Assembly (NCBI RefSeq): GCF_017303215.1
Contig: NZ_JAEMWU010000002.1
Coordinates: forward strand, 124,001-188,000
DNA: 64,000 nt
From: Microbacterium esteraromaticum
GTDB taxonomy: Bacteria > Actinomycetota > Actinomycetes > Actinomycetales > Microbacteriaceae
Direction of reading: 5' to 3'
Shown here piece by piece: positions 4,261 to 58,562 of this stretch. Position numbers and translations under genes: made by a program. Numbering within the stretch: the first letter of the stretch is position 1; each line of letters starts with the position of its first letter. A model generated the notes under the pieces. The model saw nothing but the letters and a program-made list of their open reading frames with translations. It searched no databases and was not told where the DNA came from.

Positions 4261-4387
4261 TCTCCAGACGCTGACGGCGCACTCCGGGGGAGCGGCGGAG
4301 AGGCGATCGGTGAGTGGGTAGACTGGTTGGTTGATGTCCCGACCCGGGACCGACACCGCCTGTCGTCTTTCTGAAGGACCCACCACC

Positions 4388-6103
4388 ATGTCTCTTCGCC
4401 GCTCTTTTGCCGTGCTCGGAACCTTGGGCGTTGCCCTGGGCTCCGGCCTGATCGCTGTCAGCCCGGCAGTCGCCGCCACGTCGGCACCCGGCGCGACGGC
4501 AGGTCTCAGTGCTGCACTGTGCCCGCCCGAACTGCTCCCACCGCCCGCCAACGACAACCAGGTGTGGCACGACGACCAGATCGGCGTGTTCGCGGGTGGT
4601 GACTTCATCGCCGAATCGGCATCGGCTGAGTCCGAGGGGCTGCTTGTTGTTCTCGGCGACGCGACCTTCCGCAACGGCAAGGGGTTCAATGTCGGCACCG
4701 TGGGTGTCGGCTCGGGCGTCTCGCCCACGCCCGGTGAGGTTATGCTCGCGGTCGGCGGCGACATCCGTGTCGAAGGTGCGAACACGGTGCTGGATGTGGG
4801 TGCCAACGCGACCAACGCGGATGACGAGCTCGTCGGAGGCTCGGTGCAGGTCGGGGGCAACACGACTCCCGCCTACCCGGCACCCGCGTATCGCCTGAAC
4901 GAGGGAACCCTCACCGAGGGGATGGGGGCGGACGCCCTCAGCGCTTGGGCCGAGACCGACGTCGCGGCCATGTCGCAAGCGTTCTCCGGGCGGGACGACA
5001 CCGGCGAGGTGACAGGTGACCAGTGGAACCTGACGTTCACGGGTGACGGCGCTAGTTTGCGACAGGTGTTCACCGTGTCCGCTGACAAGCTCACCGTCGG
5101 GAACCCTGCGATTCACTTCCTGCAGATCCCCGAGCGCGCCAGCGTGGTCGTGAACGTGACCGGCTCCGGCGATGTCGTCTGGGCCCCGACCTACTTCACC
5201 GACAACGGCGACCGAGTCGACGGACTGGACGCTCCGCGGTTCGGCCAGGTGGCCGGGCGCACGCTGTGGAACTTCGCAGATGCCGATTCGGTGCACATCG
5301 ACGGCAGCAGCCAGGTGCTCGGTTCGCTCGTGGTTCCCGCGAAGGACTCCACCGACGCTCCGGCGATGCGCATCACGGCATCGACCAACGGCGTCATCTA
5401 CACCGCCGGCTCGATCATCATGGACGGCCAGGGTAACGAGCAGCACTTCTACCCGTGGATCGAGTACCCCTGCGGCTCCACGCCGGAGCCGGGGCCGGAG
5501 CCGGAGCCGCAGCCTGAGGTCGAGGGCGCCTTCACGATCACCAAGACGGTACAGGGCGAGAACGCTCCGCAGGTTGCCTTCAGCGGTGCGTACAGCTGCT
5601 CGATCGACGACGCGCAGGTCAGCACGGGAGTGTGGGAGCTCGCCGCCGGTGAGACGACAGACCCCATCGTCGCACCCGTCGGAGCATCCTGCGCGGTGAG
5701 CGAGGATCTTCCCACTGACACCGAGGCCGGCACCTGGGGTGCCCCAGTCGTGTCCGGTTCGCCGGCGATCATCACGAAGGCATCCGCGCAGGAGCCCGTC
5801 CGCATCTCGGTGCTGAACACGTTCGTGCCCGCGCCCGGCCCGGGCCCCGACCCCACGCCGACCCCCGAGCCGACGCCGGACCCGGAGCCCACGCCGGACC
5901 CGGAGCCCGCGCCGACCCCGGAGCCGACGCCGACCTCGGAGCCCACGGTCGAGCCGACGCCGGCTCCGACCACGCCGGCTGAGACGCCCGAGGGTGAACT
6001 TGCGACCACGGGTGGCACGATCGCGATCACGACCGTGGCTCTCGGAGCGCTGCTGTTGGTCGCCGGACTGCTTCTTCGCCTGCGTCACCGCGCGCAGCAG
6101 TAA
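4388..6103 (+). CDS. Cell-wall-sorted choice-of-anchor A protein with a DUF5979 domain and LATTG signal
   Basis: A secreted surface protein of 571 residues. A Sec signal peptide occupies about residues 1-30 (ending SPAVAAT). The next 330 residues resemble the choice-of-anchor A domain (IGVFAGGDF, DVGTVGVGSG-like turns, SQVLGSLVVP). After a short Pro/Glu spacer comes a DUF5979-like repeat (FTITKTVQG to NTF). A Pro-Glu-Pro-Asp-Thr wall spacer of about 45 residues follows. The C-terminus is a sorting signal: LATTG (538-542), a hydrophobic helix and an Arg-rich tail. LAxTG is the motif used by class E sortases in actinobacteria. The ATG at 4388 has GAAGGA upstream; an ATG 57 bases earlier lacks a signal-peptide context. 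The ligand is unknown. Confidence 0.8.
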   Translation: MSLRRSFAVLGTLGVALGSGLIAVSPAVAATSAPGATAGLSAALCPPELLPPPANDNQVWHDDQIGVFAGGDFIAESASAESEGLLVVLGDATFRNGKGFNVGTVGVGSGVSPTPGEVMLAVGGDIRVEGANTVLDVGANATNADDELVGGSVQVGGNTTPAYPAPAYRLNEGTLTEGMGADALSAWAETDVAAMSQAFSGRDDTGEVTGDQWNLTFTGDGASLRQVFTVSADKLTVGNPAIHFLQIPERASVVVNVTGSGDVVWAPTYFTDNGDRVDGLDAPRFGQVAGRTLWNFADADSVHIDGSSQVLGSLVVPAKDSTDAPAMRITASTNGVIYTAGSIIMDGQGNEQHFYPWIEYPCGSTPEPGPEPEPQPEVEGAFTITKTVQGENAPQVAFSGAYSCSIDDAQVSTGVWELAAGETTDPIVAPVGASCAVSEDLPTDTEAGTWGAPVVSGSPAIITKASAQEPVRISVLNTFVPAPGPGPDPTPTPEPTPDPEPTPDPEPAPTPEPTPTSEPTVEPTPAPTTPAETPEGELATTGGTIAITTVALGALLLVAGLLLRLRHRAQQ

Positions 6104-6126
6104 TCGGTAGCTGCGTCGTCGCGCAT

Positions 6127-51886: not shown

Positions 51887-52867
51887 TCAGACGCGTGCCC
51901 CGGCGAACGGCACGGGCACGCGCGAGACGATCTGCTTCAGGGCGCTCTCGACGGGCTGCGCCCCGGCACGGTGCACGCCACGCGCCGCGAGCAACCGGTG
52001 AGCAAACACCGGGATCACGAGGTCGGCGAGATCGTCGGGAACGACGAAGTCGCGACCATCGAGCGCGGCCGCGACCTTCGCCGCGCGCACGAGCTGCAGG
52101 GTCGCGCGCGGGCTCGCCCCCAGGTGAAGGCTCGGGTCCATGCGGGTCGCCTGTGCGAGCGCGACGGCATACTCCTCCAGCGACTCGGCGACGTGCACGC
52201 GCCGTGCCCAGGCGATCAACTGCTCCACGGTCGCCGCGTCGGTCACCGGCACGATCGCCGACAGCGGGTTGGACGTCTCACGCTGGCGCAGCATGAGAGT
52301 CTCGGACGCGGCATCCGGGTATCCCATCGAGATCCGCATCATGAACCGGTCGCGCTGGGCCTCCGGCAACGGATACGTGCCCTCCATCTCGAGCGGGTTC
52401 TGCGTCGCGACCACCAGGAACGGCTCGGGCAGACGGTGCGTGGCGCCGTCGACAGTCACCTGCTGCTCTTCCATCGCCTCCAGCAGTGCCGACTGCGTCT
52501 TGGGGGAGGCCCGGTTGATCTCGTCGGCGATGACGATGTGCGCGAACACAGCGCCGCGCTTGAACTCGAACTCCCGCCCCACCGGGTCGTACACGGCGAC
52601 ACCGGTGACATCGCTCGGCAACAGGTCCGGCGTGAACTGGATGCGCCGCACCGTGGCATCCACACTCGCCGCCAGCGCGCGAGCGAGCATCGTCTTTCCG
52701 ACGCCCGGCACGTCCTCGATCAGCAGGTGCCCCTCAGCGAGCAGGCAGATCAGCGCGCTGCGCACGGCATCCGGCTTGCCGTCGATCACCGACGTGACCG
52801 AGGCCGTGATGCGCGCGGTCTGCTCGGCGAACTGCTCGGCGGTGATCTGCGGAACGTTCTCGTGCAT
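51887..52867 (-). CDS. MoxR-family AAA+ ATPase
   Basis: A 326-residue AAA+ ATPase. The Walker A motif is EDVPGVGKTMLA (K58), Walker B IVIADEINRASP, and the MoxR sensor regions are VATQNPLEMEGTYPLPEAQRDRF and ASPRATLQLV. MoxR ATPases act as chaperones for VWA/DUF58 proteins; the next gene is such a protein. ATG at 52867 follows GAAGGG; an upstream in-frame extension to 53011 runs through the SRP RNA gene. Confidence 0.88.
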   Translation of the reverse strand: MHENVPQITAEQFAEQTARITASVTSVIDGKPDAVRSALICLLAEGHLLIEDVPGVGKTMLARALAASVDATVRRIQFTPDLLPSDVTGVAVYDPVGREFEFKRGAVFAHIVIADEINRASPKTQSALLEAMEEQQVTVDGATHRLPEPFLVVATQNPLEMEGTYPLPEAQRDRFMMRISMGYPDAASETLMLRQRETSNPLSAIVPVTDAATVEQLIAWARRVHVAESLEEYAVALAQATRMDPSLHLGASPRATLQLVRAAKVAAALDGRDFVVPDDLADLVIPVFAHRLLAARGVHRAGAQPVESALKQIVSRVPVPFAGARV

Positions 52868-52969
52868 GCGATGCCCTTCGTGCGCGACGGTGCGTGCCTC
52901 GATCGTAACCCGGTGTGAAGCGAGGGGTTCCCCGAGATGCCGGCGGTCAGCGCCGCGCGCAGCGTCGGG

Positions 52970-52975
52970 TAGACT
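52970..52975 (+). promoter_or_regulatory. -10 box of the SRP RNA gene
   Basis: TAGACT, 7 or more bases before the RNA start. No strong -35 (TCAGCG at 17-base spacing). Confidence 0.55.
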
Positions 52976-52982
52976 GATCGAC

Positions 52983-53068
52983 GGCTCTCCGCGTGACGAC
53001 ACCCAGGCCAACTCCCCCAGGACGGAAACGTAGCAAGGGTAACCGGGCTCTGTCGGGTGCGCGGAGGG
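52983..53068 (+). ncRNA. ffs: Small signal recognition particle RNA (4.5S type)
   Basis: The 5' and 3' arms pair (CTCCGCG with CGCGGAG, about 52987-53066), and the apical part contains the conserved helix 8 core: CCCAGGACGGAAACG with its GGAA tetraloop, followed by TAGCAAGGGTAACCGGG, giving the symmetric and asymmetric loops that bind Ffh. Length about 85 nt. A run TCTTTTCTTTT right after it (53069-53079) gives the 3' end. Ends are approximate. Confidence 0.88.
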
Positions 53069-53090
53069 TCTTTTCTTTTGCCGGGGGCGC

Positions 53091-53600
53091 TCAGCTCACG
53101 CAGCGCACGTTCGTCACACTGCCGAACACGTTCGCCGATGCGCCCGCCTTCGCCGTGGCCCGGACCGTCGTGCCGCTGCGGGCCTGGAGGTAGCCGGTCG
53201 AGCGCGCGTTGGCGATGGAGCGCACGGTGAACGCGCTGATCGAGAACGTGCCGCACGTCGACCAGCTGAGTCGGCTGCCGCTGAGGTTGCCCCCTGAGAA
53301 GGCGCACACCCTGCCGCTGGCGCAGGAACCGACCGAAGCCGTGCCGACGGCGGACGACCCGACCGCGGATGACGAGAGAGTGCGTGTCGAAACACCACTC
53401 GCCGAGGTCATCTCCAGCCCGAGCGCCGGCCACGTCGCATGGTGCGCATCCAGCAGCACGCCGCCGGGCACCGCTGCCATCACCGCGGCGATATCAGCGC
53501 TCGGCTCCGGCGGGGCATCCGTGGCGAGTGCCGCCGGTCCCGACAGTACGAGGGCGACGGCGGTGGTCAGGGCCGCGAGTATCGTGCTGCTGCGCTTCAT
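53091..53600 (-). CDS. Secreted peptidase-inhibitor-like protein (I36/crystallin fold)
   Basis: A 169-residue exported protein. The signal peptide is residues 1-36 (ending PAALATDA). The mature C-terminal region from CASGRVCAFSGGNLSGSRLS carries the Cys spacing of the family I36 metalloprotease inhibitors and crystallin-like proteins, ending VTNVRCVS. It is the third gene of the sigma/anti-sigma operon; the first in-frame ATG (53606) overlaps the previous stop as ATGA, but the ATG at 53600 has the better AGGAG spacing. The inhibitor function is inferred from fold family. Confidence 0.7.
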   Translation of the reverse strand: MKRSSTILAALTTAVALVLSGPAALATDAPPEPSADIAAVMAAVPGGVLLDAHHATWPALGLEMTSASGVSTRTLSSSAVGSSAVGTASVGSCASGRVCAFSGGNLSGSRLSWSTCGTFSISAFTVRSIANARSTGYLQARSGTTVRATAKAGASANVFGSVTNVRCVS

Positions 53601-53602
53601 GG

Positions 53603-54589
53603 TCATTGCTCCTCTTGTGAGTCCCACATCCGGTACTCGACAACGGTGCCTGCGGGTACCGTCTCATCCGCCACGGTGCGCATCGTCTCCACTCCGACGA
53701 TCCGTCCCGAGTCCGACGAGAGCAGCACGGTGTCGGTCAAGCCATCGATGGTCGAAGCGATCTGCACTCCCGCAACGTCCCGGCCGAGGCGATCCACGGA
53801 CTGCCCCAACGAGGCCGCCCCACCGGTGCTCACGAGCATCTCCAACAGCACTGCATGCTGCGTATCGCTGAGCGTCCAGTAGTCCATCACCGTGACCATC
53901 GACTGCACCAGATCTCCCGCGCTCGGGCGTTCGGGCATGCCGTACATCGTCAGCAGCTCTGTCATGCCGGCCACGGTCGCTGGGGGAGCCTCCGGACTCG
54001 GCACACCGAACTCACCCGGGGCGAATGTCACTTGCGACACCACGGTGTCGGTGGCGCTGACGCGTCCCGGCCCGCCATCGCTCCCGGGCTGCACACGGCC
54101 TTCGACGACGAGCGAGTGGCCCGAGAGATCGGGGTTCCACTCCAGCTCGACGATCTGCGGGGTCACCGCTGCCTGCAACTCCCCGTCATCGATCGAAATC
54201 GCCCATGAGATCGTGTGCACCCGCCGAGCCGGGTTCTCGGCTCCGGCGGGTCCGCTCAGAGCATCCGTCGCCTCGGCGACCACCTGCGGCACCGGCGCCG
54301 GAGCCGTGAACGACAGCGGAACGGGGCTGACGGCCTCGGCACGCTGACCACCCAACGCCACCGACACCGACACGGTGGCCACCACCACCAGGGATGCGAC
54401 AGCCAGAGTCCAGCCGAAGCGCCGCGATGCGCGGCGGCGCTCGCGACTGCGGGCCGCGGCCTGTTCGGCGGCGAGGCGGTCGCGCAGTGCGCGCAGAAAT
54501 GCCGGCGGACCGGCGTCGGATGCCGCCTGGGCCGGATCGATGCGCCGCAGCAGCGAACGCAGTCGTTCATCGTCACGCAGATCGGACAT
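53603..54589 (-). CDS. Putative membrane anti-sigma factor (CU044_5270-like)
   Basis: A 328-residue single-span membrane protein. The N-terminal cytoplasmic domain (1-58) has the DPAQA and Arg-rich segment typical of anti-sigma regulators, one helix occupies about 59-80 (WTLAVASLVVVATVSVSVAL), and the extracytoplasmic part has no known motif. Such proteins follow ECF sigma genes in many actinobacteria. Its start overlaps the sigma gene by 17 bases. Regulation of that sigma factor is inferred from position. Confidence 0.7.
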   Translation of the reverse strand: MSDLRDDERLRSLLRRIDPAQAASDAGPPAFLRALRDRLAAEQAAARSRERRRASRRFGWTLAVASLVVVATVSVSVALGGQRAEAVSPVPLSFTAPAPVPQVVAEATDALSGPAGAENPARRVHTISWAISIDDGELQAAVTPQIVELEWNPDLSGHSLVVEGRVQPGSDGGPGRVSATDTVVSQVTFAPGEFGVPSPEAPPATVAGMTELLTMYGMPERPSAGDLVQSMVTVMDYWTLSDTQHAVLLEMLVSTGGAASLGQSVDRLGRDVAGVQIASTIDGLTDTVLLSSDSGRIVGVETMRTVADETVPAGTVVEYRMWDSQEEQ

Positions 54590-55112
54590 GCTCACCTCCC
54601 GCTCGGAGGCCGACCTCGGCGGCGAACAGCAGCGCATGGAGCTTCTGCCGTGCGCGCTGAAGGCGTTTGCGCGCCACGGCCTGGCGAAGCCCCAGCATCT
54701 TGGCTGCCGTGGCGACGGTCCAGCCGTCCATGTCGACCAGTTCGATGAGATGGCGCTCCCCAATGGACAGGCCTGAGAACACCCACTCCAGATCGATCCG
54801 CAGATCGCCTTCCGGCGACGCGGCAGCGCGCAGCACCTCGCCGAGTAGCGCCGGGGCCTGCCGAACAGGCGCCGGGGTCTGGCCGTCTCCGCTGGAGGTG
54901 TCGATGACGCGCAGCAGCCAGCTCAGGTTCACCGACCCGCCATCGCGCACAACGACCCAGGCGCGCTCGAACGCATTCTCGACCGCGTCCTGGGCATCCT
55001 CCAACGTCATGAAGACGCGTTGCGCATGACGCAGCGCGGCCGCGCCGAAGCGATCCACCAGCGCATCGAACGTTCGGCGGTTCTCCTCGAGGACGATGCG
55101 TCGACGCCTCAT
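54573..55112 (-). CDS. ECF-family RNA polymerase sigma factor
   Basis: A 179-residue extracytoplasmic-function sigma factor. Region 2 (about 15-60) has RRTFDALVDRFGAAALRHAQRVF and DAQDAVENAFERAW; region 4 (about 110-165) has LSIGERHLIELVDMDGWTVATAAKMLGL and the recognition helix RQAVARKRLQRAR. There is no sigma 1.1 or region 3. It probably directs transcription of its own operon or envelope genes. Followed by the anti-sigma and I36-like genes. Confidence 0.82.
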   Translation of the reverse strand: MRRRRIVLEENRRTFDALVDRFGAAALRHAQRVFMTLEDAQDAVENAFERAWVVVRDGGSVNLSWLLRVIDTSSGDGQTPAPVRQAPALLGEVLRAAASPEGDLRIDLEWVFSGLSIGERHLIELVDMDGWTVATAAKMLGLRQAVARKRLQRARQKLHALLFAAEVGLRAGGEHVRSA

Positions 55113-55219
55113 CGCCAGACCACCCGCGGAACACCGTCATACTGCATGGCCCGATCCTCCCACAGCGGCGAGGCGTCGACGCCCAGCCTCCTCCCGCTCT
55201 GTCCTGCGAAGATCGTCGT

Positions 55220-55819
55220 GTGACCGCATCCGCTCCCGCCCCGGCCTCTCCCTACTTCACGCGCTTCCTCGCCCCAGTGGGGCTGCTCGCGCTGATGTGG
55301 GTGATCCAGCTCGCGGATGCCGTCCTCCCGGGCAGCTTCGTCGGATGGGGCCTGCGGTCGTGGGATCTGGGGAGTCTGCAGGGCGTTGTGCTCGGTCCGC
55401 TGTTGCACGCCGGCTGGGCGCACCTGATCGCGAACTCCGTGCCGTTCCTGGTGCTCGGCTGCCTCGTCGCCGTTGAAGGGGCGAAGCGCTTCTGGGCGGT
55501 GACCGCCATGGTCGCGCTCATCGGAGGCGCGGGCACCTGGCTGGTGAACGCACCGGGCACCCTCACTGTCGGATCGTCCGTGCTCGTCTTCGGCTACTTC
55601 GGGTACGTCGTCGTGCGGGTGCTCGCCCCCGGTCGCCTCGCACACCGGTTCGCGTACGCCGGGATCGCCGTGATCGTCGTGGTGATGTACGGCACGACGA
55701 TGTTCACCGGCATCTTCGGCGTGCACAGCGGTGTGTCGTGGCAGGCGCATCTGTTCGGGGCCATCGGCGGCGGCCTGACCGTGTTCGTCCGCCGCAGAGA
55801 GGTCGGCAGCCGTGAGTGA
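55220..55819 (+). CDS. Rhomboid-family intramembrane serine protease
   Basis: A 199-residue protein with about six hydrophobic segments. Conserved features: LLHAGWAHLIANSVPFLVLG with H63/H68 and N72, the active-site Ser in the GSSVLVFG segment (S120, GxS), and the partner His H177 in WQAHLFGAIGG. The GxSG motif is relaxed here (GSSV). It is divergent from the sigma operon and translationally coupled (GTGAGTGA) to the next gene. Cleavage of the anti-sigma factor is speculative. Confidence 0.82.
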   Translation: MTASAPAPASPYFTRFLAPVGLLALMWVIQLADAVLPGSFVGWGLRSWDLGSLQGVVLGPLLHAGWAHLIANSVPFLVLGCLVAVEGAKRFWAVTAMVALIGGAGTWLVNAPGTLTVGSSVLVFGYFGYVVVRVLAPGRLAHRFAYAGIAVIVVVMYGTTMFTGIFGVHSGVSWQAHLFGAIGGGLTVFVRRREVGSRE

Positions 55820-56447
55820 GCGGCGCACACGCGCCGCGCGGATGCGGCGCCGCGCCCGGCGCCGTCGACAACGACGTCGGATGCTGAAGATCGCCGGCAT
55901 CACAGCATCCGCCGCCATCGTGATCACGGGCGCGCTCGCCGTGGTCGGGGTGCTGACGGCCACGCGATCCGACGCCTACTGCGTCGATGAGCCGCGGACG
56001 TTCCCCGACGCGGGGGTCGACGGGTGGCAGGGCGAGCAGCTCGAGAACGCGGCGATCATCATCCGCACCGCCGACGAGTTCGGCCTCGAAAGGGACGGAC
56101 AGATCCTCGGTGTGATGGCGGCGATGGGCGAGAGCTCACTGCGCAACATCGACTACGGCGACTGGGAGACCTCGGGCGTCACCAACCCCGATGGCACCCG
56201 AACCTCGAGCATCGGGCTGTTCCAACAGCAGGACTGGTGGGGGAGCGTCGAGGACCGGATGGACCCGGCCACCGCCGCTCGTCTGTTCTTCACCCGCCTC
56301 GAACGCGTGCCGCAGTGGCAGACGCTCGAACCCTCACACGCCATCCATCGCGTCCAGATCAACAGCGACCGCGACCACTACGCGCGCTTCGAGGACGACG
56401 CCACCCGCGTCGTCGTGGCGCTGTCTGCGGAGTGCCCGTCGCCGTAG
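55812..56447 (+). CDS. Membrane-anchored lysozyme-like (Rpf/transglycosylase-type) protein
   Basis: A 211-residue protein. A strongly basic cytoplasmic N-terminus (Arg-rich, 1-23) is followed by one membrane helix (about 24-48) and an extracytoplasmic domain. The domain has GVMAAMGESSLRN (a lysozyme-like catalytic Glu, about E107), TSSIGLFQQQDWWGS and MDPATAARLFFTRLERV, as in actinobacterial transglycosylases. It probably acts on peptidoglycan. The GTG start overlaps the rhomboid stop by 8 bases. Confidence 0.75.
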   Translation: MSERRTRAARMRRRARRRRQRRRMLKIAGITASAAIVITGALAVVGVLTATRSDAYCVDEPRTFPDAGVDGWQGEQLENAAIIIRTADEFGLERDGQILGVMAAMGESSLRNIDYGDWETSGVTNPDGTRTSSIGLFQQQDWWGSVEDRMDPATAARLFFTRLERVPQWQTLEPSHAIHRVQINSDRDHYARFEDDATRVVVALSAECPSP

Positions 56448-56450
56448 GCT
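56445..56450 (+). promoter_or_regulatory. -10 box of pta
   Basis: TAGGCT ends 6 bases before the GTG at 56457; a CTGTCT lies at an 18-base spacing upstream. No ribosome-binding site. Confidence 0.5.
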
Positions 56451-56456
56451 GGAGCC

Positions 56457-58562
56457 GTGGCACGCAGCATCTACATCACCTCGGCCGAGGGGCACACGGG
56501 CAAGTCGACCATCGCGCTGGGCGTGCTCGACGCACTGATGCGCGTGTCGGAGCGCGTCGGGGTGTTCCGCCCCGTCGCCCGTTCGACCGACGAACGCGAC
56601 TTCGTCGTCGAGCTGCTGCTCGCCCACGACGGCGTGCACCTCGACTACGACGAGTGCATCGGCGTGAGCTACGACGACGTCCGGCAGGACCCCGAAGGTG
56701 CGCTCGGCACGATCGTGGCCCGCTTCAAGGCGGTCGAAGCGCAGTGCGACGCCGTCGTCGTGCTCGGCAGCGACTACACCGATGTCGCCAGCCCCGCAGA
56801 GCTCAGCTACAACGCGCGCATCGCCGCGAATCTCGGCGTTCCGGTGTTGCTCGTGCTCTCGGGGCGCGACAGTCAGAACCAGGCCGAGCAGCTCGGCACC
56901 ACCACGGCCCGCACACCCGATCAGATTCAGCAGATGGCGGCGCTCGCGCGCAGCGAGCTCGCCACCGAGCGGGCCGAACTGTTCGCCATCATCGTCAACC
57001 GCGCCGAACCCGACATGCTTGGTGAGATCGTCGAGCGCATCGATGACCTGCGCACCCCGGTGTGGGCCGTGCCCGAGGACCGGGCGCTGGTCGCGCCCTC
57101 GATGCGGGGCATCCTGCGGGCGGTCGACGGCACGCTGGTGCGCGGCGAAGACGAGTTGCTCGAACGCGAGGCGTACAACATCGTCATCGCCGGCATGTCG
57201 ATGGTCAATGTGCTGCCGCGCCTCACCGAGAGTGCCGTCGTCGTGATCGCCGCCGACCGCACCGAGACGTTGCTGGCGACGCTGCTCGCCGCAGCATCGG
57301 GGACGTTCCCCGATCTCGCGGGCATCGTGCTCAACGGCCCCTTCCCGCTGCCCGATCCGGTGCTGCAGCTGATCGACGGCATCGAGTTGACCGTGCCGAT
57401 CGTGACCACCGATCTGGGCACCTACGACACCGCGGTGCGCATCATGAACACCCGTGGCCGCGTCAGCGCCGAGAGCAGCCGCCGCTACGAGAGCGCACTG
57501 GCGCTGTTCCAGACCCACGTCGACATCTCCGAGCTGACGATCGAGATGGGGCTGGCCGAATCGACCGTCGTCACGCCGCTGATGTTCGAGTACGGGCTCA
57601 TCGAACGCGCGCGCAACGACCGCAAGCGCATCGTGTTGCCCGAGGGCGGCGATGACCGCATCCTGCGGGCCGCCGCCGTGCTGCTGGCCCGCCAGGTCGC
57701 CGACCTGACGATCCTCGGCGACGAGACCGAGATCCGGGCCCGCGCTGTCGCCCTCGGGCTCGACATCAGCGAGGCGCAGATCCTCAGCCCCACGGATCCG
57801 GTCATGGTCGAGCGGTTCGCCGCCGAGTACGCGCGGCTGCGTGCGCACAAGGGCATCACCGTGCAGCAGGCGGCCGACACCGTCACCGATGTGTCGTACT
57901 TCGGCACGATGATGGTGCACCTCGGGCTCGCCGACGGCATGGTGTCGGGTGCCGCGCACACCACCGCGCACACCATCCGGCCCTCGTTCGAGATCATCAA
58001 GACCAAGCCGGGCGTCGATGTCGTCTCCAGTGTGTTCCTCATGGCACTCTCTGACCGCGTGCTCGTGTACGGCGACTGCGCCGTGATCCCCGACCCCACC
58101 AGCACGCAGCTCGCCGACATCGCGCTGTCGTCGGCGGGCACAGCGAGGCAGTTCGGCATCGATCCGCGGGTGGCGATGCTGTCGTACTCCACCGGCGAGT
58201 CGGGTAGCGGCGCCGACGTCGACAAGGTGCGTGAGGCAACTGCTCTCGTGCGCGCTCGCGACCCGCAGCTGCCGGTCGAGGGGCCGATCCAGTACGACGC
58301 CGCGGCGGATGCGGCCGTCGCGAAGGCCAAGCTGCCGGATTCTGCCGTGGCGGGCCGGGCGACCGTGTTCGTCTTCCCCGACCTGAACACGGGCAACAAC
58401 ACCTACAAGGCGGTGCAGCGCTCGGCCGGCGCCGTGGCGATCGGGCCCGTGCTGCAGGGGCTGAACAAGCCGATCAACGATCTCAGCCGGGGCGCGCTGG
58501 TCGACGACATCGTCAACACGGTGGCGATCACGGCCATCCAGGCGCAGGGGACGGACGAATGA
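56457..58562 (+). CDS. pta: Phosphate acetyltransferase, long BioD/DRTGG form
   Basis: Converts acetyl-CoA and phosphate to acetyl phosphate and CoA. The 701-residue protein has three parts: an N-terminal P-loop BioD-like domain (TSAEGHTGKSTIALG, K16), a DRTGG domain (about 215-320), and the C-terminal PTA/PTB catalytic domain (about 375-700) with KGITVQQAADTVTDVSYFG, MVSGAAHTTAHTIRPSFEII and TVFVFPDLNTGNNTYKAVQR. It is coupled to ackA by an ATGA overlap. GTG start. Confidence 0.93.
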   Translation: MARSIYITSAEGHTGKSTIALGVLDALMRVSERVGVFRPVARSTDERDFVVELLLAHDGVHLDYDECIGVSYDDVRQDPEGALGTIVARFKAVEAQCDAVVVLGSDYTDVASPAELSYNARIAANLGVPVLLVLSGRDSQNQAEQLGTTTARTPDQIQQMAALARSELATERAELFAIIVNRAEPDMLGEIVERIDDLRTPVWAVPEDRALVAPSMRGILRAVDGTLVRGEDELLEREAYNIVIAGMSMVNVLPRLTESAVVVIAADRTETLLATLLAAASGTFPDLAGIVLNGPFPLPDPVLQLIDGIELTVPIVTTDLGTYDTAVRIMNTRGRVSAESSRRYESALALFQTHVDISELTIEMGLAESTVVTPLMFEYGLIERARNDRKRIVLPEGGDDRILRAAAVLLARQVADLTILGDETEIRARAVALGLDISEAQILSPTDPVMVERFAAEYARLRAHKGITVQQAADTVTDVSYFGTMMVHLGLADGMVSGAAHTTAHTIRPSFEIIKTKPGVDVVSSVFLMALSDRVLVYGDCAVIPDPTSTQLADIALSSAGTARQFGIDPRVAMLSYSTGESGSGADVDKVREATALVRARDPQLPVEGPIQYDAAADAAVAKAKLPDSAVAGRATVFVFPDLNTGNNTYKAVQRSAGAVAIGPVLQGLNKPINDLSRGALVDDIVNTVAITAIQAQGTDE

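Follow-up and report, generated by a model that had tools for sequence, protein, structure and literature searches.

A relocated sigma/anti-sigma/small-protein cassette beside a rhomboid gene in Microbacterium esteraromaticum

Here, we analyze a stretch of 64,000 nucleotides from Microbacterium esteraromaticum (NCBI RefSeq assembly GCF_017303215.1, contig NZ_JAEMWU010000002.1, positions 124,001 to 188,000; this whole stretch is referred to as the window) and in it a locus where genes for an extracytoplasmic function (ECF) sigma-like protein, a putative anti-sigma factor, and a small exported protein (the trio) face genes for a rhomboid protease and a lysozyme-like protein. In our best explanation, to which we assign a probability of about 60%, two unrelated gene groups were joined here by insertion: the trio, located behind era in many Microbacterium species, now lies between the gene for the signal recognition particle (SRP) RNA and the rhomboid gene, would operate by the sensing mechanism that we infer below, and includes a sigma-like protein that has lost charge. 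The SRP RNA gene, absent from an earlier note on this DNA, is the key to the locus.

Results

The site occupied by the trio was compared with the 28 best-scoring of 35 rhomboid places outside the window species, taken with flanks of up to 1.5 kb. In 24 of these 28 loci, the SRP RNA gene immediately precedes the rhomboid gene, at a distance of no more than about 150 bases, so that the relatives show the empty form of the site. No SRP match was found in L047 and L048, none is present in L063, and L058 carries the SRP RNA gene on the other side. The lysozyme-like gene adjoins the rhomboid gene in 26/28 loci, together with pta in 25/28, and trio genes are absent from the flanks of all 28. In the window, the trio sits between the SRP RNA gene and the rhomboid gene, with junctions placed by eye near 53083 and 55195; neither a target-site duplication nor an insertion sequence was seen by eye at these borders. 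The era region of the same genome reads era-quinone oxidoreductase-leuA-recO and is free of the trio. Since many relatives have the trio behind era, it is at a different place here. The names era, leuA, recO, quinone oxidoreductase, pta, ackA, and moxR were assigned by reading the sequences, not by family search. By this comparison, the pairing of the rhomboid gene with the lysozyme-like gene is ancient and ancestral to the site, and both genes are bystanders to the sigma cassette. Separately, the SRP RNA gene on the opposite side of rhomboid in L058 (2104-2197, genome G004) represents a second rearrangement of the site.

The trio itself recurs. Among 99 genomes of the genus, the anti-sigma family gave 46 matches in 41 genomes; these places include two fragments (G075:C21 and G069), and dropping the weak G069 match leaves 40 genomes. 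Once split matches in G063, G072, and G016 had been merged, 40 rows of small-protein matches were reduced to 37 places, 32 of which have an anti-sigma match no more than 2 kb away; conversely, 32 of the 46 anti-sigma places have a small gene at that distance. An open reading frame (ORF) matching the window sigma (E≤0.01) was present at 39 of the 44 anti-sigma places taken with flanks, and a sigma-type ORF could be read in 4 more. A scan of named genomes yielded 35 Microbacterium loci, of which 32 contain all genes of the trio in a single order (exceptions: L182, L201, and L202), a proportion that leans to the era-linked clade, because the patterns came from close relatives; the same scan with the window anti-sigma alone as the query found no relative. 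The era gene adjoins the trio or pair in 33/35 named loci and is also present in 14/30 best anti-sigma loci and in 21/21 loci newly added from 366 genus genomes, sets that overlap, as some newly added loci may be the same strains as named records. One locus with a complete trio (L240) was found in another family of the order. Thus, as the earlier note had supposed, the three genes form one unit, and to judge from these gene orders the trio is a real recurrent unit, common in Microbacterium. L182 has an era-linked sigma/anti-sigma pair for which the scan found no small-protein gene, and in L085, L154, and L155 the order varies, the small-protein gene preceding the sigma and anti-sigma genes.

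On the same comparative grounds, neither half is a chance assembly, both being conserved gene groups in other genomes, at different places. Because the trio recurs elsewhere and has been inserted here next to a protease gene unrelated to it, the neighborhood of the two halves is mostly coincidence.

Across 62130 bases aligned between the two genomes of the window species (G000 and G071), 715 sites differ, or 11.5 per kb. Only 3 single-nucleotide polymorphisms (SNPs) fall in the 5 kb from 52611 to 57610, and the cassette lies entirely within the longest run of the aligned window that is free of SNPs (52610-55276, 2666 bases). This SNP-poor stretch would most simply be read as a recent recombination tract that includes the cassette and its flank. 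Elsewhere in the window, approximately 4261-6121 did not align to the compared part of G071 and is perhaps strain specific.

Table 1. Features of the locus (positions in the window)
Feature	Position	Strand	Remarks
ECF-sigma-derived gene	54573-55112	minus	sigma4 intact; core-binding region 2.1-2.2 recognizable; region 2.3/2.4 rewritten, few basic residues
Putative single-span anti-sigma gene, CU044_5270-like	53603-54589	minus	LolA/RseB/MucB-like outer domain predicted, residues ~96-326
Small exported protein gene	53091-53600 (or to 53606)	minus	signal-peptide-like N terminus; PGG...W; four-cysteine beta-gamma-crystallin-like domain (predicted), ~85-169
SRP RNA gene (bacterial small)	52980-53076	plus	RF00169, 61.4 bits; ancestral left neighbor of rhomboid
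Rhomboid protease gene	55220-55819	plus	PF01694; ancestral neighbor, outside the cassette
Lysozyme-like exported protein gene	55812-56447	plus	ancestral partner of rhomboid; followed by pta, ackA
Inserted cassette, approximate extent	53083-55195		by eye, versus relatives in which SRP RNA and rhomboid are adjacent
Low-diversity tract, two genomes of the window species	52611-57610		spans cassette, rhomboid, and lysozyme-like gene

Each of the five ORFs is present, and they are arranged as first described, with an overlap of 17 bases between the sigma and anti-sigma genes (54573-54589) and of 8 bases between the rhomboid and lysozyme-like genes. The proposed coupling of the small gene to the anti-sigma gene through ATGA depends on the start codon: the in-frame ATG at 53606 generates this overlap with the anti-sigma stop, and the ATG at 53600 has the better Shine-Dalgarno spacing. 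The SRP RNA gene converges on the small-protein gene, leaving about 15 bases between their ends (52980-53091).

The putative anti-sigma factor matched the NCBIfam family CU044_5270 (NF038083) over nearly its full length (E 3.4e-16), with a score of 59.9 bits, below the curated cut-off of 100. All 23 aligned anti-sigma members matched this profile at E≤0.001, and the sigma gene expected next to a member of this family is present, overlapping by the 17 bases given above. An order-wide profile search detected a match at E≤0.001 in 105 of 149 genomes, 10 of them over the cut-off and many of the weak ones partial; a sigma-type ORF was found in the flanks of 20 of the 25 loci read from this search (four of these loci from the same genus) and was lacking in those of L237, L241, L242, L243, and L246. 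The window protein thus shares its profile and sigma neighborhood with the CU044_5270 family found beside ECF sigma genes, and differs in its score and in the additional crystallin-like third gene and era linkage. The name CU044_5270 was not found in the literature searched.

The predicted model of the window anti-sigma protein has a mean predicted local distance difference test (pLDDT) score of 79.5 with a confident outer domain. The structural neighbors of this domain were led by 2yzy, MucB, RseB, LprG, LprF, and LppX at moderate Z-scores of 5.2-6.4, below 8: 2yzy scored 6.4 (root-mean-square deviation [rmsd] 5.5, 128 residues aligned), MucB 6.0 (5.8, 132), RseB 5.8 (5.3, 133), and LprG 5.8 (4.7, 133). 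With Foldseek, the first three matches were LolA type, and 3bk5 (E 5.6e-4, template modeling [TM] score 0.21) was the only one under 0.001. In the model, the outer domain appears to resemble the LolA/RseB/MucB fold; the agreement among the matches is telling, and the scores are moderate.

In the sigma-like protein, the sigma4 domain is normal. Sigma70_r4_2 (PF08281) scored 29.5 bits over a cut-off of 25.7 and was matched by 16/16 members at E≤0.01, whereas Sigma70_r2 (PF04542) reached 14.5 bits against a cut-off of 24 and was matched by 5/16 members at this threshold. Regarding whole-protein ECF profiles, PF07638 was just above its cut-off (21.3 versus 21.1 bits), covering the sigma4 part only, and TIGR02937 was below it (36.9 versus 42.9). 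The region 2.3/2.4 motif of the relatives (WLYRTARNL..N.YRRRDRE type) is missing from the window protein, which we therefore call ECF derived rather than a standard ECF sigma. Canonical relatives read WLYRTARNLIANEYRRRDRE in this region, others WFLRTADNKLRDVARRDRS, WLLRTADNKVRDRDRRARS, and WLLRAADRRLGARSGRTSA, and the window protein WLLRVIDTSSGDGQTPAPV.

Similarity was scored as the mean BLOSUM score per column against canonical rows chosen by eye, and the era-linked rows comprised 15 loci, L066-L080, of which L066 itself has no era in its flanks. In region 2.3/2.4, the score fell from 3.23 in canonical rows to 1.36 in the small-gene-first loci (n=3), 0.65 in era-linked rows (range, 0.03-1.86), and 0.38 in the window; the corresponding values were 2.61, 2.31, 1.57, and 0.98 for sigma4 and 2.52, 1.25, 1.22, and 0.93 for region 2.1-2.2. 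Since the window score is inside the era-linked range, region 2.3/2.4 had, by similarity, already been rewritten in the era-linked clade, from which the window protein is no outlier on this measure. What is peculiar to it is a loss of charge, seen, in these alignments, only in this species. Its 19-residue segment of region 2.3/2.4 contains 2 basic residues, compared to 5-8 in the 15 era-linked rows and 4-8 in the 26 remaining relatives, and 4 Gly/Pro compared to 0-3 in all 41. A graded erosion of the region was rejected as a description, because the window score is within the range of a clade that keeps its basic residues.

The tree suggests that the window sigma has changed extremely fast, with an end branch of 4.64 (median, 0.29) as opposed to 1.08 (median, 0.37) for the window anti-sigma (42 rows each), although the placement of so long a sigma branch is unsure. 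Identity to the proteins of named relatives is 20-29% for the sigma, 33-39% for the anti-sigma, and 39-50% for the small protein; the usual order of conservation of sigma and anti-sigma factors is the reverse of the one seen here. The sigma frame is open, guanine-plus-cytosine (GC) contents of 0.77/0.48/0.79 at the three codon positions correspond to a coding pattern, and the protein is identical in both genomes of the species. A frameshift as the cause of the odd segment was rejected, as the motif does not reappear in either of the other frames. Upstream of the gene, the palindrome GGCGTCGACGC was considered as an operator and discarded (3 matches, a number reached by 8 of 100 shuffles), and inspection by eye for a shared promoter showed that the DNA preceding the era-linked loci is taken up by the terminal part of era followed by a brief gap, and revealed nothing in common with the window.

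Little is left in the window sigma of the basic segment responsible for reading and melting the -10 element, which makes ordinary initiation doubtful; the protein may be re-specialized or on its way out. Decay of the sigma gene after the cassette moved, with the anti-sigma and crystallin-like proteins persisting for a while or for another reason, is a tentative option that we take seriously without favoring it: the long end branch and the confinement of the charge loss to this species fit such a course, whereas the gene has acquired neither a stop nor a frameshift and has kept its overlap with the anti-sigma gene and its coding codon pattern. Continued action of the protein as an ordinary ECF sigma factor, with a shifted -10 preference, strikes us as rather unlikely. 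The intact frame, its identity in two genomes, and a sigma4 domain above the Pfam cut-off agree with continued function, and the era-linked clade, whose range includes the window score, may well be functional; however, the window protein has fewer basic residues and more Gly/Pro in its 2.3/2.4 segment than any relative aligned, and Sigma70_r2 remained below its cut-off. We speculate, with considerable doubt, that the protein has kept its surfaces for RNA polymerase and the anti-sigma factor as well as its -35-binding domain but no longer initiates transcription, the -10-reading segment having been rewritten with charge kept in one lineage and having lost its charge in this species, and the anti-sigma factor with its built-in sensor and the crystallin-like output having been kept in a travelling envelope-sensing cassette.

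The small protein begins with a signal-peptide-like stretch, and across its aligned members a PGG...W stretch and four cysteines are invariant. Its C-terminal domain looks beta-gamma-crystallin-like in structural comparison: residues 85-169 had 4ni3 (Z 7.6, rmsd 2.2, 75 aligned) and 1hdf (Z 7.3, rmsd 2.7, 84 aligned) as neighbors, and 79 of 274 chains in the crystallin-type domain comparison were at Z≥5. The hydrophobic leader is missing before the domain in seven related loci (L083, L087, L088, L089, L092, L156, and L158), where the best 12-residue mean hydropathy was 0.05-0.57, compared to at least 2.3 in the others that could be read; L076, L090, and L155, low-scoring rows that had been misread at another PGG, are left out of this check. 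In L083, the small-protein ORF begins within the anti-sigma stop.

The small protein had been proposed to be an I36-type inhibitor guarding against extracellular metalloproteases, and the corresponding profile match scored 20.3 bits, under the Inhibitor_I36 cut-off of 21.1, over 31 residues. This match was seen at E≤0.01 in 3/18 small-protein members, the window's included. A true secreted metalloprotease inhibitor as the output of the system would agree with the partial match, the predicted crystallin-like fold, and the invariant cysteines, and the I36 member SMPI also has a crystallin-like fold. Likeness to this family would extend to the predicted fold, the cysteines, and the leader peptide; the additional PGG...W N-terminal stretch sets the window protein apart, and the leaderless relatives are hard to square with an extracellular inhibitor role. 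We consider such an inhibitor improbable.

The rhomboid protein matched PF01694 (Rhomboid) with 74.6 bits over a cut-off of 22.6. Ser120 and His177, which we take to be the catalytic residues, are kept in 30/30 loci compared, two of the window species included. Orthologs (E of about 1e-30 or better) were found in 37/99 genus genomes, and any rhomboid match in 54/99. The lysozyme-like protein had no Pfam or NCBIfam match over any cut-off and owes its name to sequence matches to the solved structures 8b2h ("SH3b domain-containing protein," E 1.6e-8) and 8b2e ("Muramidase," E 1.3e-5).

Discussion

We propose that the anti-sigma factor holds the sigma-like protein at the membrane and that its LolA/RseB-like outer domain would sense a lipid, a lipoprotein, or another envelope ligand. 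Ligand binding might then trigger regulated proteolysis of the anti-sigma factor by a site-1 protease and the M50 site-2 protease, of which the window genome encodes one. The freed sigma-like protein would alter transcription, and the co-encoded crystallin-like protein could be a conserved output or the ligand.

Several observations weigh against insertion of such a sensing module as the explanation of the locus. The small gene is missing within 2 kb at 14 of the 46 anti-sigma places. The SNP-poor tract was delineated from one genome pair. The nearest other anti-sigma protein among 366 genus genomes (threshold, E 1e-45) is at most 41% identical to that of the window, which points to either an unsampled donor lineage or rapid divergence of the cassette, and third-position GC (0.79 in the sigma gene, 0.80 in the anti-sigma gene, and 0.86 in the small-protein gene versus 0.85-0.92 in five neighbors other than moxR) is a weak sign of foreign origin. 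The assignment of the second trio protein as a probable anti-sigma factor draws on gene order and topology. For its outer domain, Foldseek TM-scores were about 0.2 and unrelated folds (Mediator, cereblon) appeared further down, next to Z-scores of up to 6.4 in the structural comparison; for the small-protein domain, Foldseek returned no match at E≤0.001 (best, 0.052). Finally, the full trio and a rhomboid co-occur in 16 genomes, more often than by chance (Fisher p 0.023, uncorrected for ancestry).

This last figure touches on the idea, put forward in the earlier note, that the rhomboid cleaves the anti-sigma factor. An anti-sigma match is present in 40 and a rhomboid ortholog in 37 of the 99 genomes, both in 19 (Fisher p 0.095, uncorrected for ancestry). 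The two halves are adjacent only in G000 and G071, and in the other 17 genomes with both they are more than 400 kb apart or on different contigs; no anti-sigma match was found in 18 of the 37 genomes with a rhomboid ortholog, and no such ortholog in 21 of the 40 with an anti-sigma match. Likewise, among 113 partly overlapping loci, rhomboid-anti-sigma linkage was confined to L064 and L065, both of the window species. As the halves do not adjoin in the other species compared, the idea fails on the very co-occurrence that was named as its test, and the rhomboid was rejected on linkage as the site-1 protease of the anti-sigma factor. A functional partnership of the rhomboid and lysozyme-like proteins with the sigma operon, including cleavage of the anti-sigma factor, is hardly credible: the adjacent, divergent arrangement here, the conserved catalytic residues, and the somewhat higher rhomboid frequency in trio genomes are outweighed by adjacency in a single species, by the many genomes with one half only, and by the orientation of the anti-sigma span, which we expect to be N-in, while rhomboids mostly cut N-out spans.

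The inserted trio invites comparison with known systems. E. coli sigmaE/RseA/RseB and Pseudomonas AlgU/MucA/MucB combine a membrane anti-sigma factor with a LolA-like sensor fold, as the trio would; the sensor is a separate protein there and, according to the model, appears fused to the anti-sigma factor here, in a Gram-positive host. A lipid, which is lipid A in the case of MucB, frees the anti-sigma factor from its guard (PMC7400510), and by analogy the outer domain of the window anti-sigma might sense a ligand as MucB does. For the sigma-like protein, another study offers EcfP and PhyR, the latter mimicking a sigma factor, as precedents for sigma-type proteins that lack standard motifs or act as mimics (PMC8999054). 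The likeness would consist in a sigma fold that is kept while parts for ordinary initiation are missing; the altered part here is region 2.3/2.4, profile search found no receiver domain in the window sigma, and a PhyR_sigma-like match occurred in 1/16 sigma members. No paper joining an ECF sigma, an anti-sigma factor, and an I36 inhibitor was among the best-ranked literature matches, and among the matches listed for LolA/RseB-like anti-sigma factors, Microbacterium ECF sigmas, and rhomboids with anti-sigma factors, none dealt with this arrangement, judging by title and start of abstract.

Our analysis removes a tempting but wrong link between the rhomboid and the anti-sigma factor and puts in its place a module of three genes that is frequent in Microbacterium and open to testing. 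Should the predicted fold prove right, this module would include an anti-sigma factor of a Gram-positive lineage with an RseB-type sensor built in as a domain. Region 2.3/2.4 has changed in two steps, by rewriting in one clade and by loss of charge in M. esteraromaticum, and may provide a natural series on the limits of sigma-factor loss.

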